Assembly: GCA_026398815.1 (NCBI GenBank)
Contig: JAPLSA010000030.1
Span: 1-64,000, forward strand
DNA length: 64,000 bases
DNA from: Gammaproteobacteria bacterium
Lineage (GTDB): Bacteria; Pseudomonadota; Gammaproteobacteria; Nevskiales; Nevskiaceae
Reading direction: 5' to 3'
The notes below the pieces were generated by a model that did not search any database, was not told where the DNA came from, and saw only the letters and a program-made list of their open reading frames with translations. Below, piece after piece: positions 5,309 through 40,850 of this stretch. The translations under genes and the position numbers were made by a program. Position 1 is the first letter of the stretch, and each line of letters opens with the position of its first letter.

Positions 5309-5752
5309 TCAGCCGGCCGGCTTGGCGCGGTCGGCCGGAATCACTGCAACGGTGAGCCGGGAAATGCAGACCAGGCGATCGTCGGCGTCGGTCAGGCGGA
5401 TTTCCCAGACCTGCGAGGTGCGGCCGACGTGCACCGGCCGCGCGGTGCCGGTGACCAGGCCGCTGCCCAGTGGCCGGATGTGGTTGGCGTTGAGATCGAG
5501 GCCGACCGGCACGCCGATCGCCGGGTCGGTCGCCAGGAAGGCGGCGATGCTGCCGAGTTCCTCGGCCAGCACGCAGGACGCGCCACCGTGCAGGCGGCCG
5601 TAGGGCTGCACGGTGCGCGGATCGACCGGCATGGTGCCGCGCAGGAAATCCGGCCCGACTTCGGTGACCCGGATGTCGAGGTGATGACCCATCGTGTTCG
5701 GCGGGGTCGGCAGACCTTCGCCGATCGTGACGGGGCGCTTCCAGAGGCTCAT
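5309..5752 (-). CDS. hotdog-fold thioesterase (PaaI/YdiI-like)
   Basis: A protein of 147 residues with the single hotdog domain of acyl-CoA thioesterases. GRLHGGASCVLAEELGS is the usual HGG-x(n)-E active-site helix, with the glutamate of AEE as likely catalytic acid. NANHIRPL and a VWEIRLTDADDRLVCISRLT strand pair complete the fold. YdiI/MenI relatives hydrolyse aromatic acyl-CoAs such as 1,4-dihydroxy-2-naphthoyl-CoA, but the substrate here is unknown. The ATG at 5752 gives a family-length protein; the open frame upstream is low-complexity and unsupported. Confidence 0.85.
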   Translation of the reverse strand: MSLWKRPVTIGEGLPTPPNTMGHHLDIRVTEVGPDFLRGTMPVDPRTVQPYGRLHGGASCVLAEELGSIAAFLATDPAIGVPVGLDLNANHIRPLGSGLVTGTARPVHVGRTSQVWEIRLTDADDRLVCISRLTVAVIPADRAKPAG

Positions 5753-5849
5753 GTCGGTGTCGCGTGAAGTGGGAGGGCCGTCACTGTAACGCCTGCCGGC
5801 AGGGGCCTCCGATAGACTCGCCGCTCTCTCACGACCGGCCGGAACCTTC

Positions 5850-6494
5850 ATGCCTCGAACTGCGCTACTCGTCGGAGCCACCGGGCTGGTCGGCGCCGCC
5901 CTGCTCGATCGCCTGCTGGCCGCGCCGGACTACGTGCAGGTCATCGTGCTGGGCCGGCGGGCGCCGTCCCGTGCCCATCCGAAGCTGCGCGCCATGACCT
6001 CGACGCTCGAAGATCTCGATGCGCTGCCCGATCCGCTCGCTGCCGACGATCTGTTCTGCTGCCTCGGCACCACCACCCGCGCCGCCGGCGGCAAGGCCGG
6101 GCTGGAACGGGTCGACTACCACATGGTGCTGGCCGTGGCCCGCGCGGCCCAGGCCGGTGGCGTGACCCGCTTCTTCGGCGTTTCCGCAGCCGGCGCCAGC
6201 GCCACCTCGCCGGCGTTCTATTCGCGGGTCAAGGCCAGGATGGAGCGGGCGGTCGGCGAGGTCGGCTTCGCCGCCGTGCACCTGTTCCGGCCATCGCTGC
6301 TGCTGGGCGCCCGCAGCGAATCGCGACCCGGCGAAGCCCTGGCCCAGAAGCTGGCGCCGCTGCTGGCACCGCTGTGCATCGGGCCGCTGCGCAAGTACCG
6401 GCCGATCACCGCCGCCGAGGTGGCCGACGCGATGCTGCAGGTGGCCCGCCGCGATACCCGCGGCGGCACGGTGATCCACGACCTGCCGCTGTAG
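5850..6494 (+). CDS. NAD(P)-binding protein, TIP30/HTATIP2-like atypical SDR
   Basis: A protein of 214 residues with a Rossmann start LLVGATGLVGAALLDRLL, and the LGTTTRAAGG and YSRVKARMERAV segments that define the HTATIP2/TIP30-like atypical SDR group. YSRVK supplies the Tyr-x3-Lys pair. FRPSLLLGARSESRPGE and the C-terminal RPITAAEVADAM are also usual for the group. It is often called oxidoreductase or nucleoside-diphosphate-sugar epimerase in bacteria, but the substrate is unknown. It converges tail to tail with ppk2, 3 bases apart. Confidence 0.8.
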   Translation: MPRTALLVGATGLVGAALLDRLLAAPDYVQVIVLGRRAPSRAHPKLRAMTSTLEDLDALPDPLAADDLFCCLGTTTRAAGGKAGLERVDYHMVLAVARAAQAGGVTRFFGVSAAGASATSPAFYSRVKARMERAVGEVGFAAVHLFRPSLLLGARSESRPGEALAQKLAPLLAPLCIGPLRKYRPITAAEVADAMLQVARRDTRGGTVIHDLPL

Positions 6495-6497
6495 GCG

Positions 6498-7385
6498 TTA
6501 TTCGGCTTCCAGCTGCCGGCGCAACGCGGCGAACTGCGCTTTCTCGGTATCGCTGGAAACCGGGTAGCGCAGGTCCAGCTGCTGCAGGCGACGGACGATG
6601 ATGTCGGCCACCGCCGCCCGCATGAACGGCTTGGAATCGGCCGGGATCGCATACCAGGGCGCGTGCTCGCGCGAGGTTTCGTTCAGCGCATCCTCGTAGG
6701 CGGCCATGTAGGCGTCCCAGTGGGCGCGCTCGGCGACGTCGCCGGCCTCGAATTTCCAGTTCTTCTCCGGCTCGTTCAGGCGATCGAGGAAGCGGCGGCG
6801 CTGCTCCTCGCGCGAAACGTTGAGCCAGAACTTGAGGATCACCGTGCCGTTCGCCGCCAGGTGCCGCTCGTGGTCGCGGATCGACTGGTAGCGCTGCTTC
6901 CAGAATTTTTTCGGGTGCCGTCCGGGATGCGGTCGCTGGGCGCCGAGCCATTCCGGGTGCACCTTCACGACCAGCACTTCCTCGTAGTAGCTGCGGTTGA
7001 AGACGCCGATGCGGCCGCGTTCCGGCAACACGCGGGCGCTGCGCCAGAGGAAGTCATGGTCCAGCTCCTGCGGCGTCGGCCGCTTGAACGAATGCACCTC
7101 GCAGCCGGCTGGATTGACGCCGGTCAGCACGGCCCGGATCGTCGAATCCTTGCCGGCGGCATCCATCGCCTGAAAGATCAGCAGCAGCGCATGGCGATCG
7201 TGGGCGTAGAGGATCTTCTGCAGGTCATCGAGGGCGGCGACGCTGTCGCGCAGCTGCTCTTTCAGGACATCGTCGTCGGCCGCGCCCTTGGGCGGCGCGG
7301 TACGCGCTTTCCTGACCCGGAAGCGGCCGTCGTCCGGCACCAGGAACGGGCTATCGACCGGCTGCGAGCCGTCGTCCTTGCTCAT
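6498..7385 (-). CDS. ppk2: polyphosphate kinase 2 family protein
   Basis: A protein of 295 residues, the size of one-domain PPK2. The P-loop-like FQAMDAAGKDSTIRAV has Asp75 to Asp80; the lid region carries RSYYEEVLVVKVHPEW, and FWLNVSREEQRRRFLDR and NWKF follow. PPK2 enzymes phosphorylate nucleoside mono- or diphosphates with polyphosphate (or the reverse). The class (ADP or AMP acceptor) cannot be assigned confidently by eye. The ATG at 7385 overlaps the stop of the hemolysin III gene (ATGA), implying translational coupling; it is the last gene of the unit that begins at 9579. Confidence 0.9.
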   Translation of the reverse strand: MSKDDGSQPVDSPFLVPDDGRFRVRKARTAPPKGAADDDVLKEQLRDSVAALDDLQKILYAHDRHALLLIFQAMDAAGKDSTIRAVLTGVNPAGCEVHSFKRPTPQELDHDFLWRSARVLPERGRIGVFNRSYYEEVLVVKVHPEWLGAQRPHPGRHPKKFWKQRYQSIRDHERHLAANGTVILKFWLNVSREEQRRRFLDRLNEPEKNWKFEAGDVAERAHWDAYMAAYEDALNETSREHAPWYAIPADSKPFMRAAVADIIVRRLQQLDLRYPVSSDTEKAQFAALRRQLEAE

Positions 7386-22032: not shown

Positions 22033-22141
22033 AAGCGCGGCAGTGTCCCGCGCCCCGGTTCGCGAGCAGAATCGCGCACCGGCGGCGGCCCTCGGCAGCC
22101 TGTCGCCGGCCCCTTCGATCGCCGGACGAGGAGCGCCGCCC

Positions 22142-23227
22142 ATGACATCCCGATTCAACACCTTTTCGATCGCGGCGCTGCTGGCCGTCTGCACCATCGT
22201 CCAGCCGCTGCCGGTCCGCGCGGCCGCCTACGGCGAGGTTTCGGTGCTCGCCCAGGTGCCGATCCCGAACGGCTTCCCGGAAGGCATCGCGGTGCGCGGC
22301 AACCGCTTCTACGTGGCCGGGCCGGCAACGCTCGGCACCGCCTTCAACGGCAAGCCGTCGCGGGTGTTCGAGTACGACGTCGCCAGCGGCGCGCTGCTGC
22401 GCACCCTCGAAACCCAGGGCGAGCAGGTGTTTGGCGCCGAGCACGCCAATTCCTGCCTGAGCTTCGACGGCGCCGGCCGGCTGTACGTGCTGAACAACCA
22501 GCTCGGCACCTTCCGGCTCGATCTGGCGACGAGCGTGCAGGCGCAGTACACGCCGGCCTATCCCGACCTCAAGTCCTGCTCGATCCTCAACCGCGCGCCC
22601 TGCTCGCCGACGGTGCCGAACCTGCCGGCGCTGCCGAACGACCTGGCCTTCGACGACGCCGGCAACCTCTACGTCACCGACAGCCTGCAGGCGACGATCT
22701 GGAAAGTGCCGCCCGGCGGCGGCCGGCCGCAGGTCTGGTTCCAGGATTCGCGGCTGGCCTCGCCGTACGTCGGCGTCAACGGCCTGCGGCTCTCGCCGGA
22801 TCGCAGCCGCCTGTTCTTCACGGTGACGTTCGATTTCCTCGGCATCGGCCACGTCTACAGCCTGCCGCTGGTCAGCAAGCCGAAGGCCAGCGACCTGCGC
22901 GAGTTCCGCCGCTACCTCGCCGGCGGTCCGGACGGCATCGCCTTCGGCGCCAGCGGCCGGCTCTACGTGGTGCTGGCGCTGCCCGGCCAGAGCGGCATCT
23001 CGGTGCTGAATCCCGACGGCAGCGAGTTCGCCCGGATCGGCAATCCCGGCCTGAACCTGATCAAGCCGTTCGATTCCCCGGCCAATCTGGCGTTCGACGG
23101 TCTGGGCAACGCGCTGGTCACCAACCACGCATTCGCCACCGGGCTGCTGCTGCCGAACCAGTTCCAGGTGCTGAAGGTGTTCGTCAACGACACCGCTTCG
23201 CCGCTGGCCGAGCCGCTGGTGCCGTGA
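22142..23227 (+). CDS. secreted SMP-30/gluconolactonase-like beta-propeller protein
   Basis: A protein of 361 residues. A signal peptide (TFSIAALLAVCTIVQPLPVRAA) is followed by propeller blades: NGFPEGIAVRGNRFYVAGPA, ANSCLSFDGAGRLYVLNNQ, PNDLAFDDAGNLYVTDSLQ, GVNGLRLSPDRSRLFFTV, GPDGIAFGASGRLYVVL and PANLAFDGLGNALVTNH. The N/D-D-x-A-F-D-x-x-G-N-L-Y-V-T-D blade matches the SMP-30 superfamily, whose members bind calcium and hydrolyse lactones or organophosphates. The ATG at 22142 has a purine-rich ribosome site (GACGAGGAGC). It lies between TetR and modE; linkage to either is uncertain. Confidence 0.8.
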   Translation: MTSRFNTFSIAALLAVCTIVQPLPVRAAAYGEVSVLAQVPIPNGFPEGIAVRGNRFYVAGPATLGTAFNGKPSRVFEYDVASGALLRTLETQGEQVFGAEHANSCLSFDGAGRLYVLNNQLGTFRLDLATSVQAQYTPAYPDLKSCSILNRAPCSPTVPNLPALPNDLAFDDAGNLYVTDSLQATIWKVPPGGGRPQVWFQDSRLASPYVGVNGLRLSPDRSRLFFTVTFDFLGIGHVYSLPLVSKPKASDLREFRRYLAGGPDGIAFGASGRLYVVLALPGQSGISVLNPDGSEFARIGNPGLNLIKPFDSPANLAFDGLGNALVTNHAFATGLLLPNQFQVLKVFVNDTASPLAEPLVP

Positions 23228-23246: not shown

Positions 23247-24038
23247 ATGACCGATGCCGACCTGCTGCGCGCGCTCGGCGAATCGCCCGCCACCCGGCGG
23301 CGCTTCGCCCTGCTGCAGGCGATTGCCGGCGCCGGCTCGATCTCGCAGGCCGCGAAGGCGGTCGGCATGTCCTACAAGGGCGCTTGGGATGCCATCGACG
23401 CGCTGAACAACGCCGCCGACGCGCCGCTGGTGCACCGGCAGACCGGCGGCCGGCGCGGCGGCGGCACCGTGCTGACCGCGCGCGGCACCGAGCTGCTGGC
23501 GCTTTACGAACGGCTGCGCGCCGAGCAGCAGGCGATGGCCACCCGGATCGCCGAATCGCATGCCCACGCCGCCCGCGACCTGCCGGTGCTCGGCCGCTTG
23601 ACGATGCTGAGCAGCGCCCGCAACCAGCTGGCCGGCCGAGTGCGGGCGATCGACGCCGGTGCGGTCAACGACCGCATCGTCATCGAGCTGGCCGGCGGCC
23701 AGCCGCTGGTGGCGACCATCACCCGGGAAAGCACCCGCGCGATGGCGCTGGCGCCGGGCACGCCGGTCACCGCCCTGATCAAGGCGCCGTGGCTGATGCT
23801 GGCCACGCTCGGCGACGCCGGCGCCGGCGGCTGCTCGGCGGAGAACCAGCTCGACGGCGTGGTGCGCCGGATCGACCGCGGTGCGGTCAACGGCGAGGTG
23901 GTGCTCGAGCTGGCCGGCGGCCAGACCCTGGTCGCCGTGGTCACGATCGAAGCGATCGAACGCCTCGGCCTCGCCCGTGGTGGTACGGCGCGGGCGCTGT
24001 TCGCCGCCGCCAGCGTCATCCTCGTCCGTCTCGGCTGA
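23247..24038 (+). CDS. modE: ModE-type molybdate-responsive regulator
   Basis: A protein of 263 residues (E. coli ModE has 262). The N-terminal LysR-like winged HTH has ISQAAKAVGMSYKGAWDAIDALNN (about residues 31-54) and the GGRRGGGTVLTARG wing. Two molybdate-binding TOBE domains follow, each with an LxGxVxxIDxGAVNxxVxIELAGGQ pattern: RNQLAGRVRAIDAGAVND and ENQLDGVVRRIDRGAVNG. Molybdate-loaded ModE dimers bind CGTTATAT-type palindromes; one such palindrome begins 45 bases after its stop, before a TonB-receptor gene. No modABC is in the window. Confidence 0.93.
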   Translation: MTDADLLRALGESPATRRRFALLQAIAGAGSISQAAKAVGMSYKGAWDAIDALNNAADAPLVHRQTGGRRGGGTVLTARGTELLALYERLRAEQQAMATRIAESHAHAARDLPVLGRLTMLSSARNQLAGRVRAIDAGAVNDRIVIELAGGQPLVATITRESTRAMALAPGTPVTALIKAPWLMLATLGDAGAGGCSAENQLDGVVRRIDRGAVNGEVVLELAGGQTLVAVVTIEAIERLGLARGGTARALFAAASVILVRLG

Positions 24039-24082
24039 TCCGGCCGTCGTTGCTGGCCTGCGTCTCCGGCTGGCGCTATTCC

Positions 24083-24114
24083 ATCGTTATATACTTTTAT
24101 CCTCATAAAACGAA
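24083..24114 (+). promoter_or_regulatory. ModE-box-like palindrome before the TonB receptor gene
   Basis: The left half ATCGTTATATA (24083-24093) matches the E. coli ModE half-site exactly. The right half CATAAAACGAA (24104-24114) is its inverted copy at 8 of 11 positions. The gap is 10 bases rather than the usual 6, so spacing is unusual. TATACT (24090-24095) inside it could be a -10 box, so bound ModE would block transcription. The site lies 16 bases before the receptor ATG and directly after modE. Confidence 0.55.
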
Positions 24115-24129
24115 TGACGGGGGATCGCG

Positions 24130-26208
24130 ATGGGAATCCAGACACGCCGCGCAGCGGCGGCGGGCGGACTTGGCCTGCTGGTGCTGGCCGGCCAGCCGGC
24201 CACGGCGGACGACAGCAGTTCCGAGGCTGACACGGCAGCCCCGGTGTTCTCGCTCGGCGTCGTCGAAGTGCGCGGCGCCCGTTCACCGATCGTCACGCCG
24301 GCCGAATCGGTCAGCGCCGAGGCGATCCAGACCTGGCATCGCGATGACTTGTCGGAGGCCATCAGCCTGCTGCCCGGCGTGCACCTGCAGAACGTCGGCC
24401 AGCGCCGCGAGCGGCTGATCGCGGTGCGCGGCTACAGCTCCCGGCAGGTGCCGCTGTTCATCGACGGCGTGCCGGTCTACGTGCCGTACGACGGCAATGT
24501 CGACTTCAGCCGCTTCGGCGTCGACTACGTGTCCGAGATCGTCGTCGGCAAGGGCCTGGCCTCGCTGCTGTACGGCCCGAACGTGCTCGGCGGGGCGATC
24601 AACGTGATCAGCCGCAAGCCGGTGGCGCCGCTGGAAATCAGCGCCGCCAGCCAGTTCGAGCAAGGCGAAGCCGGCGGCACGCTGGCCTCGCGCGCCACCG
24701 CCAGCGTCGGTGGCCGCCATGGAAGCTGGTACGCGCACGCCACCTACTCGTACTTCGAATCCGGCGGCTACGCGCTGCCCGACAGCTTCAAGCCGACCGC
24801 CAACGAGGACGGCGGCCGGCGCGAGAACAGCGGCAGCGGCGACCAGACGATCGCCGCCAAGGTCGGCTACACCTACCGCGATGACGACGAGATCGCACTG
24901 GCCTATTACCGGCAGGACGGCCAGAAGGATTCGCCGCCCTACGCCGGCCGCGCGCCGGGCGTGCAGGCGCGCTTCTGGCGCTGGCCGTACTGGGACAAGC
25001 AGAGCTTCTACCTGTCGACCCGCAACGGCCTGTTCGGCAACCAGGCGACGCTGCGCACGCGCGTCTACTACGACACTTTCCGCAACAGCCTGTCGAGCTA
25101 CGACAACGCCAGCTATTCCAGCTTCACCCGGCCGTTCGCGTTCCAGGGCAGCGCCTACAGCGACTACACCTATGGCGGCAATGCCGACCTCGAATGGCGC
25201 TGGAACCCGGACCACGCCACCCGCGTCGCCATCCACGGCAAGCAGGACGTGCACCGGGAGCGCGACGCCGTCGGCCTGCCGCAGGAACGCTACGAGGACT
25301 TGAGCGGCGCGATCGCCATCGAGCATGGCTGGCGGCTGACCGAGCGGGTGACGATCACGCCCAGCTACGGTTACTCGGTCCAGCGTGGCCTGCGCGCCGA
25401 CAACGTCTCCAACGGCAGCACCACCCGCTTTCCACCCGGCCGCGCCGATGCCCAGAACGCCCAGATGGTGCTGGACATCGCCGCCACCGCCACCGGCCGC
25501 CTGACCGCCGGCTTCAGCCGCAAGACCCGCTTCCCGACGATCAAGGACCGCTATTCGTTCCGCCTCGGCTCGGCGATTCCCAACGCCCAGCTGGCGCCGG
25601 AATCGGCGTGGAACTACGAGTTCGGCTGGCACGAGCGGCGCGGCCGCTGGGAACTGGACGCCATGCTGTTCCAGAGCGATCTCGACAATGCGATCGAGAA
25701 CGTCACCATTCCCGCCGGCCAGTGCAGCGCGCCGAATCCGACCTGCTTCCAGCTGCAGAACGTCGGCGAGCAGCGCAATCGCGGCGCCGAACTGGCGCTC
25801 GGCTGGCAGTGGTTCGACGCCTTGAAGATCGACGCCCAGGCCACCCTGCTCGACCGCGACAACCGCAGCCGGCCGGAACTGCGCCAGCTCGACACGCCGG
25901 AGCAGAAATACCGGCTGGGCCTGCGCTGGACGCCGCTGGCCGGCGTCACCGGCAAGTTCGAGGCGCAGTACGAGACGCGGCGCTGGTCGACCACCGACGG
26001 CGCCCGCTACGCCAACGGCTACACGCTGCTGAACAGCTTCGTGCGCTACGCGCCGGGCCTGGTGCCCGGCCTCGGCATCGAAGCCGGCGTGCGCAACCTG
26101 GCCGACCAGAAGTACGCCTATCAGGAAGGCTTCTTCGAGCCGGGCCGCACCTGGCTGCTGCAGCTCGACTGGCGCCTGGCCAGCCGCAGTGCCGGGAGCC
26201 GGCAATGA
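24130..26208 (+). CDS. TonB-dependent outer membrane receptor
   Basis: A protein of 692 residues. A signal peptide (GGLGLLVLAGQPATA) is followed by a plug domain (SLGVVEVRGARSP, DLSEAISLLPGVHLQNVGQRRERLIAVRGYSSRQVPLFIDGVPVYVPYDG, GVDYVSEIVVGKGLASLLYGPNVLGGAINVISRKP) and a 22-strand barrel ending LLQLDWRL. These receptors import scarce ligands such as metal chelates, vitamins or oxoanions with TonB energy. The ligand is not identifiable from sequence. The preceding modE and ModE-like site suggest a molybdenum- or tungsten-related ligand; this is inference. The stop overlaps the next ATG (ATGA). Confidence 0.92.
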   Translation: MGIQTRRAAAAGGLGLLVLAGQPATADDSSSEADTAAPVFSLGVVEVRGARSPIVTPAESVSAEAIQTWHRDDLSEAISLLPGVHLQNVGQRRERLIAVRGYSSRQVPLFIDGVPVYVPYDGNVDFSRFGVDYVSEIVVGKGLASLLYGPNVLGGAINVISRKPVAPLEISAASQFEQGEAGGTLASRATASVGGRHGSWYAHATYSYFESGGYALPDSFKPTANEDGGRRENSGSGDQTIAAKVGYTYRDDDEIALAYYRQDGQKDSPPYAGRAPGVQARFWRWPYWDKQSFYLSTRNGLFGNQATLRTRVYYDTFRNSLSSYDNASYSSFTRPFAFQGSAYSDYTYGGNADLEWRWNPDHATRVAIHGKQDVHRERDAVGLPQERYEDLSGAIAIEHGWRLTERVTITPSYGYSVQRGLRADNVSNGSTTRFPPGRADAQNAQMVLDIAATATGRLTAGFSRKTRFPTIKDRYSFRLGSAIPNAQLAPESAWNYEFGWHERRGRWELDAMLFQSDLDNAIENVTIPAGQCSAPNPTCFQLQNVGEQRNRGAELALGWQWFDALKIDAQATLLDRDNRSRPELRQLDTPEQKYRLGLRWTPLAGVTGKFEAQYETRRWSTTDGARYANGYTLLNSFVRYAPGLVPGLGIEAGVRNLADQKYAYQEGFFEPGRTWLLQLDWRLASRSAGSRQ

Positions 26209-26738
26209 ACGCGCGCCGGATCGCGGGCAGCGCGGTGCTGCTGACGGCGCTGCTGGCCGCGCGGCCGGTGCTGGCGCAGGGCGAGGACAGCGGCTGCACG
26301 GCGTTCCGCTGGAACGTCGCCGCCGAACGGGCGCTGTTCGCGAGCGCCGGGACGGCGCTGACGGCCGGCGGCGATGCGGCATCGGCCGCAACGCTGCCGC
26401 TGGCGCAGCTCGTCAGGGTCAGCCTGCCGGCGCAGGACACGGTCGACTACCGGCTGCCGCCAGCCAAGCTGAAGCTGGCCGATGGCGCGCACGGCGGCCT
26501 GCTGCGCTTCACGGTGCCGAAGGACGGCGAGTACCGCATCGCCCTGTCGTCGGCGCACTGGGTCGATGTCGTCGACGACGCGACGCTGCTGCCGTCGCTC
26601 GACTTCCACGGTGCCAGCGGCTGCACCGCGCCGCGCAAGCTGGTGCGCTACCGGCTGCCGGTCGGGCGGCCGCTGCTGCTGCAGCTGAGCGGCGCGGTCG
26701 ACGCCACCGTCGGCATCACGGTGACGCCGGAGCCGTGA
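26205..26738 (+). CDS. small secreted protein of a TonB-receptor operon
   Basis: A protein of 177 residues with a signal peptide (GSAVLLTALLAARPVLAQG). The mature part has one beta-sandwich-like domain: LARVSLPAQDTVDYRLPP-type strand (RVSLPAQDTVDYRLPPAK), GGLLRFTVPKDGEYRIALSSAHWVDVV, and a C-terminal PLLLQLSGAVDATVGITVTP. Two cysteines (GCTAF near the N-terminus, SGCTAP) could bond. I recall similar small periplasmic proteins beside TonB receptors in other proteobacteria, sometimes under misleading enzyme names; no enzyme motif is visible. Overlapping stop/start codons with both neighbours make co-translation likely. Confidence 0.75.
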   Translation: MNARRIAGSAVLLTALLAARPVLAQGEDSGCTAFRWNVAAERALFASAGTALTAGGDAASAATLPLAQLVRVSLPAQDTVDYRLPPAKLKLADGAHGGLLRFTVPKDGEYRIALSSAHWVDVVDDATLLPSLDFHGASGCTAPRKLVRYRLPVGRPLLLQLSGAVDATVGITVTPEP

Positions 26739-27955
26739 ACCGGCGCGCCGCCTGGCCGCTGCTGCTGGCGGCGCTGCCGGGCCTCGCCGTCGCCACGGTC
26801 ACGCCACGGGTCGCCTTCACCGGCAGTGGCGATCCGCAGGCGCTGCTGCAGCCGCTGGACGCCGACGGCCGTCGCCGCCAGCAGCGCGGGCTGGCGCTGT
26901 TCAATACCGACCACGTCGTGGCCGGCACCGCCGGCGCGGCGGCGATCGATGGCCTTGGCCCGGTCTACAACGCGGCCAGCTGCGACGCCTGCCACAACAG
27001 CGGCCACCGGGCGCGCGGCCCGATCGCCGACGGGCCGCTGCCGCTGGCGCTGGTGATCCAGCTCGGCGTGCCGGCCGGCAGCACGCCGCCGTTCGGCGCG
27101 GTGCTGAACGCCCAGGCGCTGCCGGGCGTGCCGCTGGAAGGTCGCGCGAGCCTGCGGTTCCAGCTGCGCAGCGGCCGCTATCCGGACGGCCAGCCGTGGC
27201 AGCTGCGACAGCCGCGCTACCGGCTCGCTGCCGAGACCGCGCGCCGGCTGCCGAAACGCACGGTGATCCGCCCGCGCATCGCCCCGCCGGTGTTCGGCAT
27301 GGCGCTGCTCGAAGCGGTGCCGCTGACCGCACCCGGCCGCTTCGGCTGGCAAGCGGCGGTGCCGACACTGGCCGAGCAGACCGCGATCGCCTACGCCCAC
27401 GAGATGGGCATCACCAGCCGACTGCGCCCGGCGGACGACTGCGGCGCCGCCGAGCGCCGCTGCCGGGACGCGCCGAACGGCGGCGAGCCGGAGCTGGCGG
27501 ATGCCGATTTCGACGCCGTGCTGGCTTTCCAGCGCGCCTTGCCGGTGCCGGCCGAAGCGCCGCTGGCCGGCGACGCCGAAGCGGCCGGCCGCGCGCTGTT
27601 CATCGCCACCGGCTGCAGCGGCTGCCATCGCGAGCAGCTGGCCGTCACCGGCATCGATGGGCTCGACACCATCACCGCCTGGACCGACCTGCGCAGCCAC
27701 GACCTCGGGCCGGCGCTGGCCGACCGCGATCTGGCCGGCCGCCGGCAGCCGACCCGCTTCCGCACCGCGCCGCTGTGGGGGCTGGCGGCCGCCAGGGCCA
27801 AGGCGCCGCTGTTGCTGCTGCACGACGGCCGTGCGGCCAGCGTCGAGGAAGCCATCCTCTGGCATGACGGCGAAGCCCGGCCGGCGCGGCAGGCCTTCGA
27901 GCGGCAAACCGCCGCCGCACGGACGCTGCTGATGGCCTGGGTCGAAGGCCGCTGA
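26735..27955 (+). CDS. di-heme oxidoreductase (DHOR-type c cytochrome)
   Basis: A protein of 406 residues. It starts with GTG at 26735, overlapping the previous stop as GTGA. A signal peptide (WPLLLAALPGLAVA) precedes DGLGPVYNAASCDACHNSGHRARGP, the usual DHOR N-terminal segment with heme motif CDACH, and a second heme site CSGCH in ATGCSGCHREQL. FGMALLEAVP and RFRTAPLWGL are also family marks. Such proteins were called thiol oxidoreductases but are periplasmic di-heme cytochromes, some linked to iron uptake. Here it ends an operon headed by a TonB receptor, so a redox step on the imported ligand is possible. Confidence 0.87.
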   Translation: MNRRAAWPLLLAALPGLAVATVTPRVAFTGSGDPQALLQPLDADGRRRQQRGLALFNTDHVVAGTAGAAAIDGLGPVYNAASCDACHNSGHRARGPIADGPLPLALVIQLGVPAGSTPPFGAVLNAQALPGVPLEGRASLRFQLRSGRYPDGQPWQLRQPRYRLAAETARRLPKRTVIRPRIAPPVFGMALLEAVPLTAPGRFGWQAAVPTLAEQTAIAYAHEMGITSRLRPADDCGAAERRCRDAPNGGEPELADADFDAVLAFQRALPVPAEAPLAGDAEAAGRALFIATGCSGCHREQLAVTGIDGLDTITAWTDLRSHDLGPALADRDLAGRRQPTRFRTAPLWGLAAARAKAPLLLLHDGRAASVEEAILWHDGEARPARQAFERQTAAARTLLMAWVEGR

Positions 27956-28318: not shown

Positions 28319-29629
28319 TTGCCCGTGTTGTCATCCCTGTTGTCACGATGGTCGGCTGCAACCGTCGTCCTGCTGGCCCTGCTCGGGCTGTCGCCTGTTC
28401 CCGCCACCGCCACCGCCGCTGACGAGGCGCCTGCACAGCGTCTCGACGACAACTGCGGCTGGACCGAGCCGAACGGCAATACCGCCTACCCGGAAACCCA
28501 TGCCCGCTACTTCCGGCTGGCGCTGCCGCGCAACAACCGCACCCGTGGCCTGCGGCTGCGGATCGACGGCGCCTACCTGGCGTCGCGCTATTTTTCCTAC
28601 CAGCTGTACGGCGGCACCTTCGACGCCATCGACGCACTGGCCGACTACCAGATCCAGCCGAATCCCGGCAGCCAGTCGCCGCTGGCCGGCATCACCCGGA
28701 TCGATCCGGCCGTCAGTCCGGGTGGGCAGTACACGGTCTACGTGGTGTTCGCCGACAAGCCGGCGAAGCCGGCCCCGAACACGCTGTACGCCGGCGATCT
28801 CCGGCTGCCGTTCGGCCGCAACTACCTGTTCCTGCGCGCCTACCTGTCCACCGGCCTGGTGCCGCTGCCGCGCATCCGCTACCAGCAGGACGATGGCAGC
28901 CCGGCGCCAGACGGCCTGTTCGAGCGCAGTGCCTGCAACGACGGCGCGCCGCCGGCCTCGCTGAACGACGGCGGCCCGGACGGCAACAAGGGCACCGAAG
29001 CCCCGGCTGCCGGCGCGAAAGCCGCACCGGCCGGCGCCGGCCTGCTGGCCGGGTCGACCGGCCGCGACATCCGCTTCGAGGTCTACCAGCCGCGCCGGGC
29101 GCTGGGCGGCGGCGTGGTCTACAACCAGAACGCCGGCTTCATGTCGGCCAAGATCGAGCGCCGCGACGAGCTGGTACTGGTCCGCTTCCGTGCGCCGAGC
29201 GTGCCGGGCCGACACGGCGCCGTGGTGCCGGATGTCCGTTACTGGTCGCTGTGCCAGAACCGCCACCTGCTGCAGACGGTGATCGCCTGCGTCGCCGACC
29301 AGGATGCCGCCATCGATGCCAGCGGCTACTTCCATGCCGTGGTCGGCGACCTCGCCGGCCGGCCGCTCGGCGCCGATGCCCAGCACGGCTTTTCCTACCT
29401 GCCCAGCGCCGGGCTGCTCGACAACGGCCTGCTGATCGTCCGCCAGCTGCTGGCCGACCCGGACTTCCCGGGCGCGATCAACGCGGTGCCGCCCGATGCC
29501 GACCCGCAGACCGTGCTCGGCGACTACAACCCGCAGGCCACCAGCTGCCCGCGCGCGCTGTTCAGCGCCCGCATTCGCGCCGGCGACCGCGCCGCACAGA
29601 TCTTCGCCGCCTGCCGCGCGGCGCGCTGA
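28319..29629 (+). CDS. secreted protein of unknown function
   Basis: A protein of 436 residues from a TTG at 28319; a GTG two codons later has better spacing to CGGAG and is about equally likely. A signal peptide (ATVVLLALLGLSPVPATATA) is clear. The mature protein has cysteines in DDNCGWTEPNGNTAYPE, RSACNDG, YWSLCQNRH, VIACVAD, ATSCPRA and FAACRA, consistent with several disulfides, plus beta-rich segments (HARYFRLALPRNNRTRGLRLRIDG). I recognise no family. It lies 132 bases before a beta-helix/cytochrome fusion gene on the same strand and may share its export or redox function. Confidence 0.7.
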   Translation: MPVLSSLLSRWSAATVVLLALLGLSPVPATATAADEAPAQRLDDNCGWTEPNGNTAYPETHARYFRLALPRNNRTRGLRLRIDGAYLASRYFSYQLYGGTFDAIDALADYQIQPNPGSQSPLAGITRIDPAVSPGGQYTVYVVFADKPAKPAPNTLYAGDLRLPFGRNYLFLRAYLSTGLVPLPRIRYQQDDGSPAPDGLFERSACNDGAPPASLNDGGPDGNKGTEAPAAGAKAAPAGAGLLAGSTGRDIRFEVYQPRRALGGGVVYNQNAGFMSAKIERRDELVLVRFRAPSVPGRHGAVVPDVRYWSLCQNRHLLQTVIACVADQDAAIDASGYFHAVVGDLAGRPLGADAQHGFSYLPSAGLLDNGLLIVRQLLADPDFPGAINAVPPDADPQTVLGDYNPQATSCPRALFSARIRAGDRAAQIFAACRAAR

Positions 29630-29665: not shown

Positions 29666-29719
29666 CGTATTTACCATTGGGCGGTGGATCGCCGCGCGCG
29701 ACGATCCACGCCGAATACG
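29666..29719. repeat. imperfect inverted repeat before the fusion gene
   Basis: CGTATT...GGCGGTGGATCG on the left and its partner CGACGATCCACGCCGAATACG on the right pair around a GC-rich loop, giving an interrupted hairpin in the 132-base gap. It may be an mRNA structure or weak terminator; no T run follows. Confidence 0.35.
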
Positions 29720-29761
29720 ACAAGCGCCATCGCAACCAGATGGCCACCAGGGGAGAACCGC

Positions 29762-32635
29762 ATGATCCGCAGAACCAACGGCCGGCGCCGCGCCGGCCTT
29801 GTTGCCGTGCTCGCTGCTTCGGCAGCCTTCCTGACGGCCTGCGGGGAATCCGCCGGCGCGCTGCCGACGGCCGAGCCGGCCAGTCTCGCCGCACCGGCCG
29901 TGGCCGCCGCCGTGGCCAAGGCGGTACCGGCGGCAACGGCGGCAACGCCGGCATCGGTGGCCCGCACCTACACGATCTGCCCCGGCGCCAATGCCACGCG
30001 CGAAGCGCTGACCGCCTTCTTCGACGCCCGCGAAGGCGACACGATCGCCTTCTGCGCCGGCCGCTTCAGCCTGTCGACCGGGCTGATCATGAACAACAAG
30101 CGCGGCATCACCATCAAGGGCGCCGGCCGTGACCGGACCATCCTGAGCTTCAAGAATTCCGATGCCGCCGAAGGGCTCAACGTCAGCCATGCTGACGGCA
30201 TCGTCATGCAGGGCTTCACGGTGGAAGACACGCCGGGCAACTCGATCCGCGTGTTCCGCAGCCGCTACGTGACGTTCCGCGACGTGCGCGCCCAGTGGTC
30301 GGACTACAAGACCTGCTCGACCCGCCTCGACGCGCCGAACTCCTGCACCCGGCACGGCGCCTACGGGCTCTATCCGGTGCTCTGCCAGCACGTGCTGATC
30401 GAGGATTCCGAAGCCTTCGGCGCCAGCGATGCCGGCATCTACGTCGGCCAGACCTCGGATGTCATCGTTCGCCGCACACGCGCCGAGTACAACGTCGCCG
30501 GCTTCGAGTTCGAGAACACCTACCGCGCCGAATTCGTCGACAACGTCGCCACCAACAACACCGGCGGCTTCCTGATCTTCGACCTGCCGGGCCTGGCCCA
30601 GTACGGCGAGAAGAATCTCGTCCACCGCAACCGCGCCTACAACAACAATTTCCCCAACTTCGCCCCGGCCGGGAACATCGTCGGCAGCGTGCCGAAAGGC
30701 ACCGGCATGCTGGTGCTGGCGTCGGATCAGCTGGAGATCCGCGACAACGAGATCAGCGATCACGACACGATGGGCATCGGCATCGTCAACTACGGGCTGA
30801 TCGATCCCAACGAAGCCGACCTGCGCTACGACTTCTACCCGGAAGGCATCGAGATCCACGGCAACCGCTTCCGCGACAACGGCGGCACCCTGCAGCTGCC
30901 GAGCCCGCAGCGCGGCGAGGCCTCGCTGCTGCCGCTGCTGCTGAAGCTGAAGAACTACGGCCGCTCCGCGCACATCGTCTGGGACGGCAGCGTCGATGCG
31001 CCGAACGGCTGCAACGAGTATCCGAAGGATGCCGCCGGCGTGCCGCTGAACCAGCCGAACCCGAACGAGACCGGCCGCAGCGAAGCCCGCAGCGATGAGC
31101 GCGGCCGGCCGAACTACGGCCCGAACGATCCCGGCCCGAACTGTGGCGGCGCGCGCTACAACGCCTGGAAGTTCAGCAGCGCCGGCCAGCTGAAGCTGCC
31201 CGAGAACGGCCTGTGCATCGCCGAGGACAACCAGTTCACCAGCACCCGGCTGCTGACCGCGTTCGCCACGCCGTTCGTCAATGCCCGGCTGAGCACCAGC
31301 GAACCGGGCCAGCTGGCGCTGGACCTGCTGAAACCGGTGTCGACCGACCTCCGTCCGCACCGCTGCCAGCTGCCGGCACGGCCGGCGCCGAGGCTGCAGC
31401 TGCCATTTGTGCCGGACCCGGCCAATGGCGACCGCCGGCCGTCCGACGCCGAAGTGCAGGCCGCCTGCAGCGGCGGCCGTCCGGGGCAGGTCAACCGCGC
31501 GGCGCTGGCCTACAACTGCCCGCGGCTCGACCAGTACGGCCTGTTCACCAACCCGGCCGACCCGCGCACGCGGCCGGTGCAGGGCGTGGAGTACGACCTC
31601 AACACAGCGCTGTTCAGCGACTATTCGACCAAGTACCGCTTCCTGTTCCTGCCCGAGGGCCAGCCGGCGAGCTATCGCGATCGGGCCAGCCACGGCGTGG
31701 TGGCGACCTTCGATTTCCCGGTCGGCACGGTGATCGCGAAGAGCTTTTCGTTCAAGGCCGGCAATGCCGAGAACGTCGTGGAAACCCGGCTGCTGATCCG
31801 CCGCCAGACCGCCACCGGCCCGACCTGGGTCGGCCTGCCGTACATCTGGCGCACGCTCGGCGACGGCAGCCGGGTCGCCGAGCTGCATGTCGAGGGCGGC
31901 ACGGCCAGCGTCCGCTACGACTACGTCGATCCCGATCCGGAAGTGGTCGGCAGCAACGGCAAGCGCCTGCGCTACACCGGCGCGGTGCCGCGCTACACGA
32001 TCCCGGCAGCGCTGAGCTGCGTCACCTGCCACGGCAACGATGACCGCGAAGCCGGCGCGGCGCCGATCGGCCCGAAGGCGCGCAATCTCAACAAGGCGCA
32101 TCGCTACCCGGACGGCACGGTCCAGAACCAGCTGCAGTACCTGAGCCAGCGCGGCCTGCTGAGCGGCCTGCCGGCCGACCTGTCGGCGATCGAGAAACTG
32201 CCGCGCTTCAACGTGCCGGGCGATGCCGGCGACCTGCCCGGTTCCGATCAGGACCTGCATCACCGCGTCCGCGCCTACCTGGAAGTGAACTGCGTGCACT
32301 GCCACAGCGGCGGCGGCTCGGCCGCCAACTCCGGCCTGTTCCTCGATTCGTTCCGGCCGGTCGACGTGCGCTACGGCATCTGCAAGCGGCCGATCGCCGC
32401 CGGCCGGGGCTCCGGGGAAGGCCGCCGCTACGACATCGTGCCGCGCGATGCCGGGACCTCGATCCTGCCGTTCCGCGTGGGCTCCAGCGAAGCCGGCGTG
32501 CGGATGCCGCCGGTCGCGCGCAGCGTCACCCACGGCGAAGCGGCAGCGCTGATCACCCGCTGGATCGACGACGTGCTGCCGACCGCCGACACCGAGGACA
32601 ACAGCTGCTCGGGGCTCGGGCTGCTGCGCCGCTGA
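29762..32635 (+). CDS. fused beta-helix / di-heme c-type cytochrome lipoprotein
   Basis: A protein of 957 residues. The lipobox is LTAC (Cys27), followed by an Ala-rich linker. Residues about 70-480 are a right-handed parallel beta-helix: repeats such as GLIMNNKRGITIKGAGRDRT, DGIVMQGFTVEDTPGNSIRVF, HVLIEDSEAFGASDAGIYVG, DVIVRRTRAEYNVAGFEFE and QLEIRDNEISDHDTMGIGIV. Residues about 590-950 match the SO2930/HNE_0200 type of di-heme cytochrome (YDLNTALFSDYSTKYRFLFLP), with heme motifs CVTCH at 753 and CVHCH at 844. From memory, these are normally two adjacent genes. The ribosome site AGGGGAGA fits the ATG at 29762. Role unknown; a surface redox enzyme acting on a polymer is one idea. Confidence 0.85.
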   Translation: MIRRTNGRRRAGLVAVLAASAAFLTACGESAGALPTAEPASLAAPAVAAAVAKAVPAATAATPASVARTYTICPGANATREALTAFFDAREGDTIAFCAGRFSLSTGLIMNNKRGITIKGAGRDRTILSFKNSDAAEGLNVSHADGIVMQGFTVEDTPGNSIRVFRSRYVTFRDVRAQWSDYKTCSTRLDAPNSCTRHGAYGLYPVLCQHVLIEDSEAFGASDAGIYVGQTSDVIVRRTRAEYNVAGFEFENTYRAEFVDNVATNNTGGFLIFDLPGLAQYGEKNLVHRNRAYNNNFPNFAPAGNIVGSVPKGTGMLVLASDQLEIRDNEISDHDTMGIGIVNYGLIDPNEADLRYDFYPEGIEIHGNRFRDNGGTLQLPSPQRGEASLLPLLLKLKNYGRSAHIVWDGSVDAPNGCNEYPKDAAGVPLNQPNPNETGRSEARSDERGRPNYGPNDPGPNCGGARYNAWKFSSAGQLKLPENGLCIAEDNQFTSTRLLTAFATPFVNARLSTSEPGQLALDLLKPVSTDLRPHRCQLPARPAPRLQLPFVPDPANGDRRPSDAEVQAACSGGRPGQVNRAALAYNCPRLDQYGLFTNPADPRTRPVQGVEYDLNTALFSDYSTKYRFLFLPEGQPASYRDRASHGVVATFDFPVGTVIAKSFSFKAGNAENVVETRLLIRRQTATGPTWVGLPYIWRTLGDGSRVAELHVEGGTASVRYDYVDPDPEVVGSNGKRLRYTGAVPRYTIPAALSCVTCHGNDDREAGAAPIGPKARNLNKAHRYPDGTVQNQLQYLSQRGLLSGLPADLSAIEKLPRFNVPGDAGDLPGSDQDLHHRVRAYLEVNCVHCHSGGGSAANSGLFLDSFRPVDVRYGICKRPIAAGRGSGEGRRYDIVPRDAGTSILPFRVGSSEAGVRMPPVARSVTHGEAAALITRWIDDVLPTADTEDNSCSGLGLLRR

Positions 32636-39872: not shown

Positions 39873-39873
<1 letters not shown>
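39226..39873 (-). CDS. msrQ: MsrQ, heme b membrane subunit of methionine sulfoxide reductase
   Basis: A protein of 215 residues with about six membrane helices. It is the ferric-reductase-like heme protein that passes quinol electrons to MsrP in the periplasm. [44 protein letters not shown] and [20 protein letters not shown] hold the family histidines. Its ATG overlaps the msrP stop (TGATG) and its own stop overlaps the rph GTG. Confidence 0.94.

Positions 39874-40850
<977 letters not shown>

Follow-up and report, generated by a model that had tools for sequence, protein, structure and literature searches.

ModE-linked TonB-dependent receptors in Nevskiaceae and other bacteria as candidate importers of molybdenum or tungsten

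Introduction

Passage of molybdate across the outer membrane is usually ascribed to unspecified porins. ModE classically represses modA, and in E. coli it can also activate. Among TonB-dependent systems, the methanobactin receptor MbnT with MbnH/MbnP serves copper, and MbnH belongs to another di-haem family than the oxidoreductase considered here. The box of the E. coli-type ModE-modABC regulon is ATCGNTATATA-N6-TATATANCGAT (PMC545781). In A. vinelandii, ModE represses mod, and three TonB siderophore-receptor genes need the V-nitrogenase regulator VnfA1 (PMC9542535). Molybdate uptake by ModA-IcmP of Pseudomonas aeruginosa goes with the H2-T6SS, and comprises a secreted ModA and the outer-membrane protein IcmP (PMC8602904). 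Here we analyse a stretch of 64,000 nucleotides from a member of the Nevskiaceae (the window), in which a modE gene lies directly ahead of a TonB-dependent receptor gene, together with relatives of that receptor in other genomes.

Results

The modE-TonB1 locus

The features of the locus are collected in Table 1. TonB1 is the first gene of an operon that continues with H180 and DHOR. The elements on which a first-pass annotation had built its reading, namely a two-TOBE modE gene, an exact half-site, a partner matching at 8 of 11 positions and a receptor, were all confirmed in place, and the molybdenum enzyme that it had reported in the window was found as an MsrP-type gene. Within the genus the SMP-30/NHL gene also precedes modE, in the same order, in the relatives G002, G009, G013 and G015, while the gene upstream of modE in G433 is a different one, and it is doubtful that this gene is part of a ModE-receptor system.

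Table 1. Coordinates of genes and candidate sites in the window
Feature	Position	Strand	Remarks
SMP-30/NHL beta-propeller gene	22139..23227	+	SGL 39.5 bits; just upstream of modE
modE: ModE-type regulator, 263 aa	23247..24038	+	N-terminal winged HTH, two TOBE (molybdate-binding) domains
Exact ModE half-site ATCGTTATATA	24083..24093	+	candidate operator, left arm
Inverted partner CATAAAACGAA	24104..24114	-	weak, 8/11 vs TATATAACGAT, gap 10 instead of 6
TonB1: TonB-dependent receptor, 692 aa	24130..26208	+	Plug 61.7 bits, TonB_dep_Rec_b-barrel 92.5 bits
H180: 177-aa protein	26205..26738	+	overlaps receptor stop; N-terminus signal-peptide-like (by eye)
DHOR: di-haem oxidoreductase / putative peroxidase, 406 aa	26735..27955	+	PF06537 109.6 bits
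MsrP-type gene	~39873-40850		PF00174; name MsrP assigned by eye

ModE matches the Pfam profiles HTH_1 (41.5 bits) and TOBE (112.5 bits, two domains), and its residues 15-261 align almost end to end with E. coli ModE (1o7l, E 5.8e-42). Against NCBIfam it scored 122.7 bits with Mop and 97.1 bits with ModE_repress, slightly below the cut-off of 98.5, and its score against PRK10676 was 184.2 bits, below the cut-off of 369. The motifs SARN (123-126) and KAPW (179-182), whose residues we take to be molybdate contacts, are retained in the alignment, and the protein has the winged helix, paired TOBE domains and ligand motifs of a ModE regulator. By profile, TonB1 carries both the plug and the beta-barrel of a TonB-dependent receptor; it matches 21 NCBIfam families, none above its own cut-off, and its receptor profile is closest to CirA, BtuB, PirA and PqqU, none of which is a molybdenum receptor. 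Pfam and NCBIfam profile searches gave no match for H180, and comparison of H180 and DHOR with solved structures returned nothing useful. Homologues of H180 directly follow TonB1 in G002 and G433, lie convergently downstream in G426, and are found on another contig in G027.

Linkage of receptor relatives to ModE and to ModE boxes

Genome contigs were searched for receptor relatives with two short peptide patterns, so the search was not exhaustive; 113 stretches matched and 36 were confirmed, at 35 loci. A ModE homologue, either complete or represented by its HTH, shares the locus with the receptor relative in 20 of the 35 (ten Methylocystis-type, four from Zoogloea and two from the window's own genus; the HTH part alone at L066 and L080), and a DHOR homologue is present in 21. 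Gene calls in the relatives were made with an ORF script, and many names, including most modA, modB and modC and several porins, were assigned by eye; only names for which a profile result is given were checked in that way. Boxes were scored at 32 loci, leaving aside two that start at a contig end (L064 and L093) and one with 119 matched residues (L097). Before the receptor operon the best box reached at least 14/20 at 20 of the 32; among 385 other genes from these loci 8 did so, and at least four of those eight control matches fall in mod or receptor-operon promoters in their own right (modA at L078, modE at L074, and a single L094 site that was counted once per strand). The 20 box-positive loci are not all independent, because nine are Methylocystis-type and four are from Zoogloea, and L065, from the 96% relative G010, reaches 14 nearly through its left half alone; at the other 12 loci the best box scored below 14. 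Boxes scoring at least 15 numbered 14, against a mean of 0.26 (maximum 5) over 200 permuted motifs, and canonical boxes with N6 or N7 spacing precede the receptor operon in other lineages.

The order modE-box-receptor, which the first-pass annotation had proposed to seek in relatives, recurs in G433 (L138), where modE and two canonical boxes at 17/19 accompany counterparts of TonB1 (63%), H180 (54%) and DHOR (49%). Canonical boxes also precede the receptor in G426 (17), G027 (16), G432 (16) and G440 (15), and the boxes of these relatives lie 102 to 182 bases ahead of the matched part of the receptor. In G027, TonB1 and H180-DHOR are on separate contigs and each has its own box, and family-wide 13 of 14 TonB1 genes adjoin modE, modA or a canonical box. 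The sites before the receptor in G002 and G009 score 11/19, G431 has no box of at least 13 directly upstream of the receptor, and G015 has kept modE and lacks the cassette.

A box scan of 58 family genomes that was blind to gene content returned 37 sites, against 3 for the reversed-pattern control. Thirteen lie before modA or modE, 12 before TonB receptors (six of these in the TonB1 family, from four genomes), four before porins, one before a detached H180-DHOR pair and seven in other positions; six of the 37 are without a sensible target, and the two receptor loci of G426, a genome listed with 9% contamination, are copies of each other. A class-wide scan at no more than one mismatch was set aside as too strict, with only four sites in 369 genomes (control, one genome): one before modE-modA, one before a Porin_O_P gene and two without a clear target. 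On a tree of 38 hand-chosen ModE proteins, 15 of them labelled as receptor-linked, the TonB-linked label needs five changes, at least three of which are forced by strong branches, and this supports a ModE-receptor pairing that arose several separate times. The proposal that ModE controls an outer-membrane receptor is supported by recurrent linkage, by N6 or N7 boxes elsewhere, by the gene-blind scan and by the pairings on the ModE tree, all of them independent of the window's own site, and the receptor family is very probably under ModE control.

Genomic context of the cargo

In separate lineages the receptor has as neighbours modABC, the MOT1-family transporter MFS_MOT1, a TupA-like SBP and a YqeB-like protein (158.7 bits, below its cut-off of 220). 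A molybdenum or tungsten cargo fits these neighbours, and from this context the receptor probably carries a compound of one of the two metals. In an alternative that we consider unlikely, ModE controls the receptor with molybdenum merely as the signal, and the cargo is an iron chelate, such as a catecholate-like siderophore, or a ligand that molybdenum enzymes need. The closest PDB entries to the partner SBP in L069 (Methylobacter) are ferric-iron binding proteins, L076 has Peripla_BP_2 and FecCD genes downstream of the receptor, and the profile kinship with CirA, BtuB, PirA and PqqU and the VnfA1-dependent siderophore-receptor genes of A. vinelandii (PMC9542535) point in the same direction. 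Against an iron chelate stand the molybdenum and tungsten genes that adjoin the receptor in separate lineages, and the window's genome (95.59% complete), in which no nifH match lies above the cut-off (six below it, the best at 217.4 against 394.35 bits), so that a nitrogenase-iron link fails as an explanation in this genome. Molybdenum uptake linked to nitrogenase presupposes a host that carries the enzyme, and was rejected here on the same result.

The candidate operator before TonB1

The two halves of the window's own site differ in quality. When the 91-base intergenic region was shuffled by mononucleotides, a full match to the half-site, on either strand, arose in 2 of 20,000 cases (P = 0.0001), and this left half is unchanged in G010, the 96%-identical relative. 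Its right counterpart is of borderline significance (an equally good match at gaps of 4-12 has P = 0.014) and has CA in place of CG in G010; at the usual gaps of 6-7 no right arm matches at more than 3/11, the whole site scores 12/19 at a gap of 6 or 7, and the window's site does not have the inverted half-sites 6 bp apart of a canonical ModE operator. Of the palindrome described in the first-pass annotation the left half is significant, and the right is weak and mis-spaced. The gap of 10, rightly called unusual there, was confirmed; as relatives have 6 or 7, the palindrome at gap 10 is where the interpretation is least secure, and we rejected that palindrome as proof of ModE control because its right arm is weak and not kept in G010. 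In the promoters of G002, G009 and G013 an AAAACG persists, with a CGTTAT lying 3 bp closer to it. A different register, in which CG pairs stand 31 apart in both clades, was also considered and abandoned because its right arms are poor fits to the consensus. Fifteen bases lie between the right arm and the TonB1 ATG (24130). The suggestion that the site overlaps a possible -10 found no support, as a sigma-70 scan of 23950-24200 returned no promoter.

Within the window the 11-mer occurs twice at up to two mismatches, and as 0.77 occurrences are expected this is unremarkable. The exact 10-mer TCGTTATATA has only two copies in the 4.30-Mb genome, each just upstream of a TonB-receptor gene; at up to one mismatch it has six, against nine for the reversed-pattern control, and shows no excess. 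Among the 26 TonB-plug genes of this genome only TonB1 and a second TonB receptor, TonB2, have a half-site score of at least 9. TonB2 (in G000) has a canonical box at 17/19, boxes also precede its orthologues in G002, G007, G009 and G013, and in a genus scan at up to three mismatches the TonB2 site was the only match in the window's genome. Before the modA genes of this genome no box was seen by eye in the upstream stretches inspected, and none was found in the genus scan.

It might be that ModE merely adjoins the receptor in Nevskia and controls other genes, with ATCGTTATATA a chance AT-rich promoter stretch. The poor right half of the site accords with this, as do the receptor promoters of G002 and G009, which lack a canonical box, the presence of one elsewhere in the window's genome, and the 14/19 at gap 6, above the TonB1 site, that another, unrelated TonB gene in this genome reaches (L153, C8:126491). 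Such a coincidence is nonetheless decidedly improbable given the shuffling result for the left half and its retention in G010, the repetition of the gene order in G433, there with two canonical boxes, and the recurrence of ModE-receptor linkage in distant taxa. ModE probably acts at the candidate site before TonB1, where we infer that it binds.

Discussion

The gene order, the domains, the ligand motifs of ModE, the boxes of the relatives and the recurrent linkage to molybdenum genes are read directly from the sequences. A ModE-repressed, TonB-dependent operon for uptake of molybdenum or tungsten is the best explanation and, in our judgement, a likely one. For the sign of regulation and for what H180 and DHOR do, we propose the following. 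Plentiful molybdate (or tungstate) would be bound by ModE in its first TOBE pair, and the loaded regulator would occupy the operator in the receptor promoter and repress TonB1-H180-DHOR. When molybdenum is scarce the operon would be derepressed, the receptor, driven by TonB/ExbBD, would bring molybdenum or tungsten across the outer membrane as an oxyanion or, more likely, as a chelate, and H180 and DHOR may process the imported compound in the periplasm, for example releasing the metal by a redox step, before it passes to an inner-membrane importer. That ModE instead activates the operon for use at abundant molybdenum, for instance for a molybdoenzyme substrate, is compatible with single half-sites, with the unusual spacing and with activation by E. 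coli ModE, but is very unlikely given the distance of the relatives' canonical boxes from the receptor and the occurrence of the same boxes before modA, a classically repressed target.

The receptor family spans Nevskia, Methylocystis, Zoogloea and one Bacteroidetes MAG, and its association with molybdenum genes in unrelated bacteria suggests that cells actively take molybdenum, or a molybdenum compound, across the outer membrane. If control by ModE and a molybdenum or tungsten cargo both hold, TonB-dependent transport would gain one or both metals as cargo, receptors for possible molybdophores would come into view, and a di-haem oxidoreductase family of unclear function would be tied to metal handling. 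A broader proposal, which we hold with slightly more doubt than belief, is that TonB-dependent uptake of the two metals under ModE control, with the metal probably in a metallophore complex, is widespread. In such a system TonB1 would work with a small periplasmic or binding protein and with a di-haem oxidase that liberates the metal by redox chemistry, and in the window's family ModE may oversee not only modABC but every outer-membrane entry route for molybdate, namely two TonB families and OprO/P-type porins.

The locus resembles the ModA-IcmP system of Pseudomonas aeruginosa in offering an outer-membrane route for molybdate, and differs from it in that neither a TonB receptor nor a ModE box belongs to that system in the part of its description considered here (PMC8602904). 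The sole printed precedent encountered is a molybdenum cluster containing a TonB receptor with a molybdate annotation, a single line that, as it stands, describes no box, regulon or family. In grouping a TonB receptor with a di-haem enzyme and a small periplasmic protein, the locus recalls MbnT-MbnH/MbnP, in which the cargo is copper and the di-haem family of MbnH is not that of DHOR. Regulator architecture, ligand motifs and box are those of the E. coli-type ModE-modABC regulon, and such boxes precede modA in the window's family. Unlike in that regulon, ModE would here act on genes for outer-membrane receptors and porins, and the box in the window consists of one exact half and a displaced partner.

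Results

The association of modE with a TonB receptor in the window is real, and its relatives support it more strongly than its own operator does. Between modE and the receptor (TonB1), the intergenic stretch carries an exact ATCGTTATATA followed, after a gap of 10, by CATAAAACGAA. The first-pass annotation had read this as a ModE-like palindrome, of which the left half stood: it exceeds chance in shuffled intergenic sequence (P 0.0001) and is kept in the 96%-identical relative G010, whereas support for the right arm is marginal (P 0.014), and its CG is lost in G010. In G002, G009 and G013 the arrangement is CGTTAT...AAAACG, shorter by 3 bp, and in G015 the stretch after modE has diverged and the receptor cassette is missing. 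In this last genome modE is kept, and the receptor, H180 (a 177-aa protein) and the di-haem oxidoreductase (DHOR) are absent before a downstream ATPase gene. TCGTTATATA occurs twice in the window's 4.30-Mb genome, both times directly upstream of TonB-receptor genes; at up to one mismatch, the 6 forward and reverse matches together are no more than the 9 of the reversed-pattern control, and looser matches are therefore uninformative.

E. coli ModE (1o7l) aligns with residues 15-261 of the window's ModE, which retains both the SARN and the KAPW motif, and the short overlaps among TonB1, H180 and DHOR suggest an arrangement as in an operon. Genes like the two that follow DHOR are present in G010 and are not at that place in G002. 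The first-pass claim of a molybdenum enzyme, MsrP, in the window was borne out by an MsrP-type gene, which an MsrQ-like gene adjoins (named by eye, that is, without a profile check).

Coordinates of the loci discussed (window positions unless a contig, C, or locus, L, is named)
Feature	Position	Remark
modE	23247-24038	HTH and two TOBE (molybdate-binding) domains by profile
modE/receptor intergenic stretch		91 bases, between modE and the receptor start at 24130
TonB1	24130-26208	
H180	26205-26738	few-base overlap with neighbours
DHOR	26735-27955	few-base overlap with neighbour
436-aa protein	28319-29629	no family; after DHOR
Large protein	29684-32635	c-type haem motifs (by eye); after DHOR
MsrP-type gene	39873-40850	PF00174, 99 bits
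TonB2 ModE box	C23:9223-9250 (L014, L102)	
modA	C23 (L013 8070-9299, with the TOBE-less helix)	
modA-like gene	C12 (L016 about 5330-6838, with modB)	just below cut-off
TonB-receptor gene	C8:126491 region (L153)	ModE-like site at gap 6 upstream
G015 modE locus	C15:15000-30000 (L061)	
Dokdonella small Oxidored_molyb protein	L066 10079-10654	PF00174; directly 3' of receptor
Similar proteins (by eye)	L071 10001-10498; L083 5837-6376	Fibrisoma; an Acidobacteria MAG
Porin-box loci	L099, L121, L127, L137; L113	family genomes; class; Pfam-tested
Porin-box loci	L116, L129, L130, L135	by eye

Among the 26 TonB-plug genes of this genome, a half-site score of at least 9 was found for only two, TonB1 (left half 10/10) and TonB2, a second, unrelated receptor gene. 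TonB2, whose reading frame ends after only 397 aa in this genome, has a canonical ModE box (GTCGATATATT-tataaa-TATATAACGAT, 17/19) 25 bases before its ATG, and its orthologues in G002, G007, G009 and G013 have boxes upstream. When both halves are scored together with a spacing of 6 or 7, the TonB1 site (12/19) falls below that of the L153 TonB gene (14/19). Some 3 kb from the latter gene there are two modB-like permease genes, which score below cut-off. The modA copy is adjoined by a TOBE-less ModE-type helix and has no modBC next to it; the modA-like gene adjoins modB and is without an adjacent modC (by eye). No ModE box was seen upstream of either copy, and nifH was not found above cut-off in this genome.

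Upstream regions of 32 receptor operons and 385 other genes of the same loci were scored with ATCGNTATATA-N6/7-TATATNACGAT (20 positions). Scores of at least 14/20 were obtained for 20 of the 32 operons, including nine Methylocystis-type (boxes with gap 7) and four Zoogloea, against 8 of the other genes, the remaining 12 operons falling below 14; at a score of at least 15 the counts were 14 and 6, and 200 permuted motifs gave a mean number of 0.26 and a maximum of 5. A blind scan of 58 genomes of the window's family (ATCGNTATATA-N6-TATATNNCGAT, at most three mismatches, most target genes named by eye) found 37 distinct sites, spread over 28 genomes; the reversed pattern gave 3. Six precede TonB1-family receptors (two in G426, mutual copies; two in tandem in G433; G432; G027), five the second TonB family (the window's genome, G002, G007, G009, G013), one another TonB gene (G026), one H180-DHOR (G027), four Porin_O_P or OprD porins, one a no-family protein that looks outer-membrane by eye (G008), and 13 modA or modE (a divergent porin lies at several of these); six have no sensible target. 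The modE-box-receptor order that the first-pass annotation proposed to seek in relatives recurs in G433 (L138), where modE, two boxes, TonB1, H180 and DHOR follow one another. In G027 the receptor (L136) is on contig C31 and H180-DHOR (L139) on contig C1, and both have a ModE box of their own upstream; because the separated pieces each retain a box, TonB1 and H180-DHOR would form one regulon, for which this is the best single argument. Boxes also lie upstream of porins of the OprO/P type (Porin_O_P), which are often transcribed divergently from modA; such a porin is likely to be a molybdate porin under ModE.

At E 1e-70 or better, 14 TonB1 genes were found in 13 of the 58 genomes, and for 13 of them modE, modA or a canonical box is adjacent: modE in the window's genome, G010, G002, G009, G013 (contig end), G433 and G437, modA in G437 and G435 (named by eye), and a box of at least 15/19 in G433, G027, G426 (two copies), G432 and G440. 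In G431 no box of at least 13 was found directly upstream of TonB1, whose only neighbours are a porin-like gene, itself preceded by a 13/19 site, a solute-binding protein (SBP) gene and the beginning of a DHOR-like gene (named by eye). On the ModE tree (INDEPENDENCE; 38 chosen proteins, 15 rows labelled receptor-linked) the label changes five times, at least three of them forced by strong branches, against a shuffled mean of 12.1. The pairing has therefore arisen or been rebuilt several times, not once, the exact number being unsure because L178, L111, L069, L070 and L038 are long branches.

Searching genome contigs with the receptor alignment and two peptide patterns gave 35 loci, 20 with a ModE homologue (14 of these Methylocystis-type or Zoogloea) and 21 with DHOR. 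The neighbours differ from one lineage to the next, but indicate Mo or W. They comprise modCBA-type genes (by eye), a ModE-type helix and a PF00174 protein in Dokdonella (L066); modA and a modB-like gene in Sterolibacterium (L078); SBP, DHOR, a TOBE-type protein and modE-modABC in Zoogloea (L074); SBP and DHOR with modE and a YqeB-like gene in Methylocystis (L085); a ModE-type helix directly upstream in Bacteroidetes (L080; ModE_repress 73.0 bits, below cut-off); an SBP whose nearest match is tungstate-binding protein 3lr1 in Acidobacteria (L079); an MFS_MOT1 molybdate transporter (143.6 bits) near L072; and Peripla_BP_2 and FecCD genes 3' of the L076 receptor. Counting against this pointer, the SBP of Methylobacter most resembles ferric-iron binding proteins.

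Discussion

On the best reading of these data, Mo-bound ModE would repress the receptor operon and Mo starvation would derepress it; the receptor would then use TonB energy to import a Mo or W compound, with H180 and DHOR acting in the periplasm. Here we infer the sign of regulation, the cargo and the periplasmic step. A ModE box upstream of a TonB receptor is not described in the parts consulted of the open-licence matches listed, PMC5343134, PMC11734730 and PMC10669500 among them. The ModE box consensus is given in PMC545781, PMC8602904 concerns ModA-IcmP, and PMC9542535 reports on two redundant ModE repressors as well as on TonB receptors that depend on VnfA1; in A. chroococcum, a TonB receptor annotated for molybdate adjoins modE/modG/modABC. 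The window operon is likely to be a variant of TonB-dependent metal uptake with Mo or W as its cargo.
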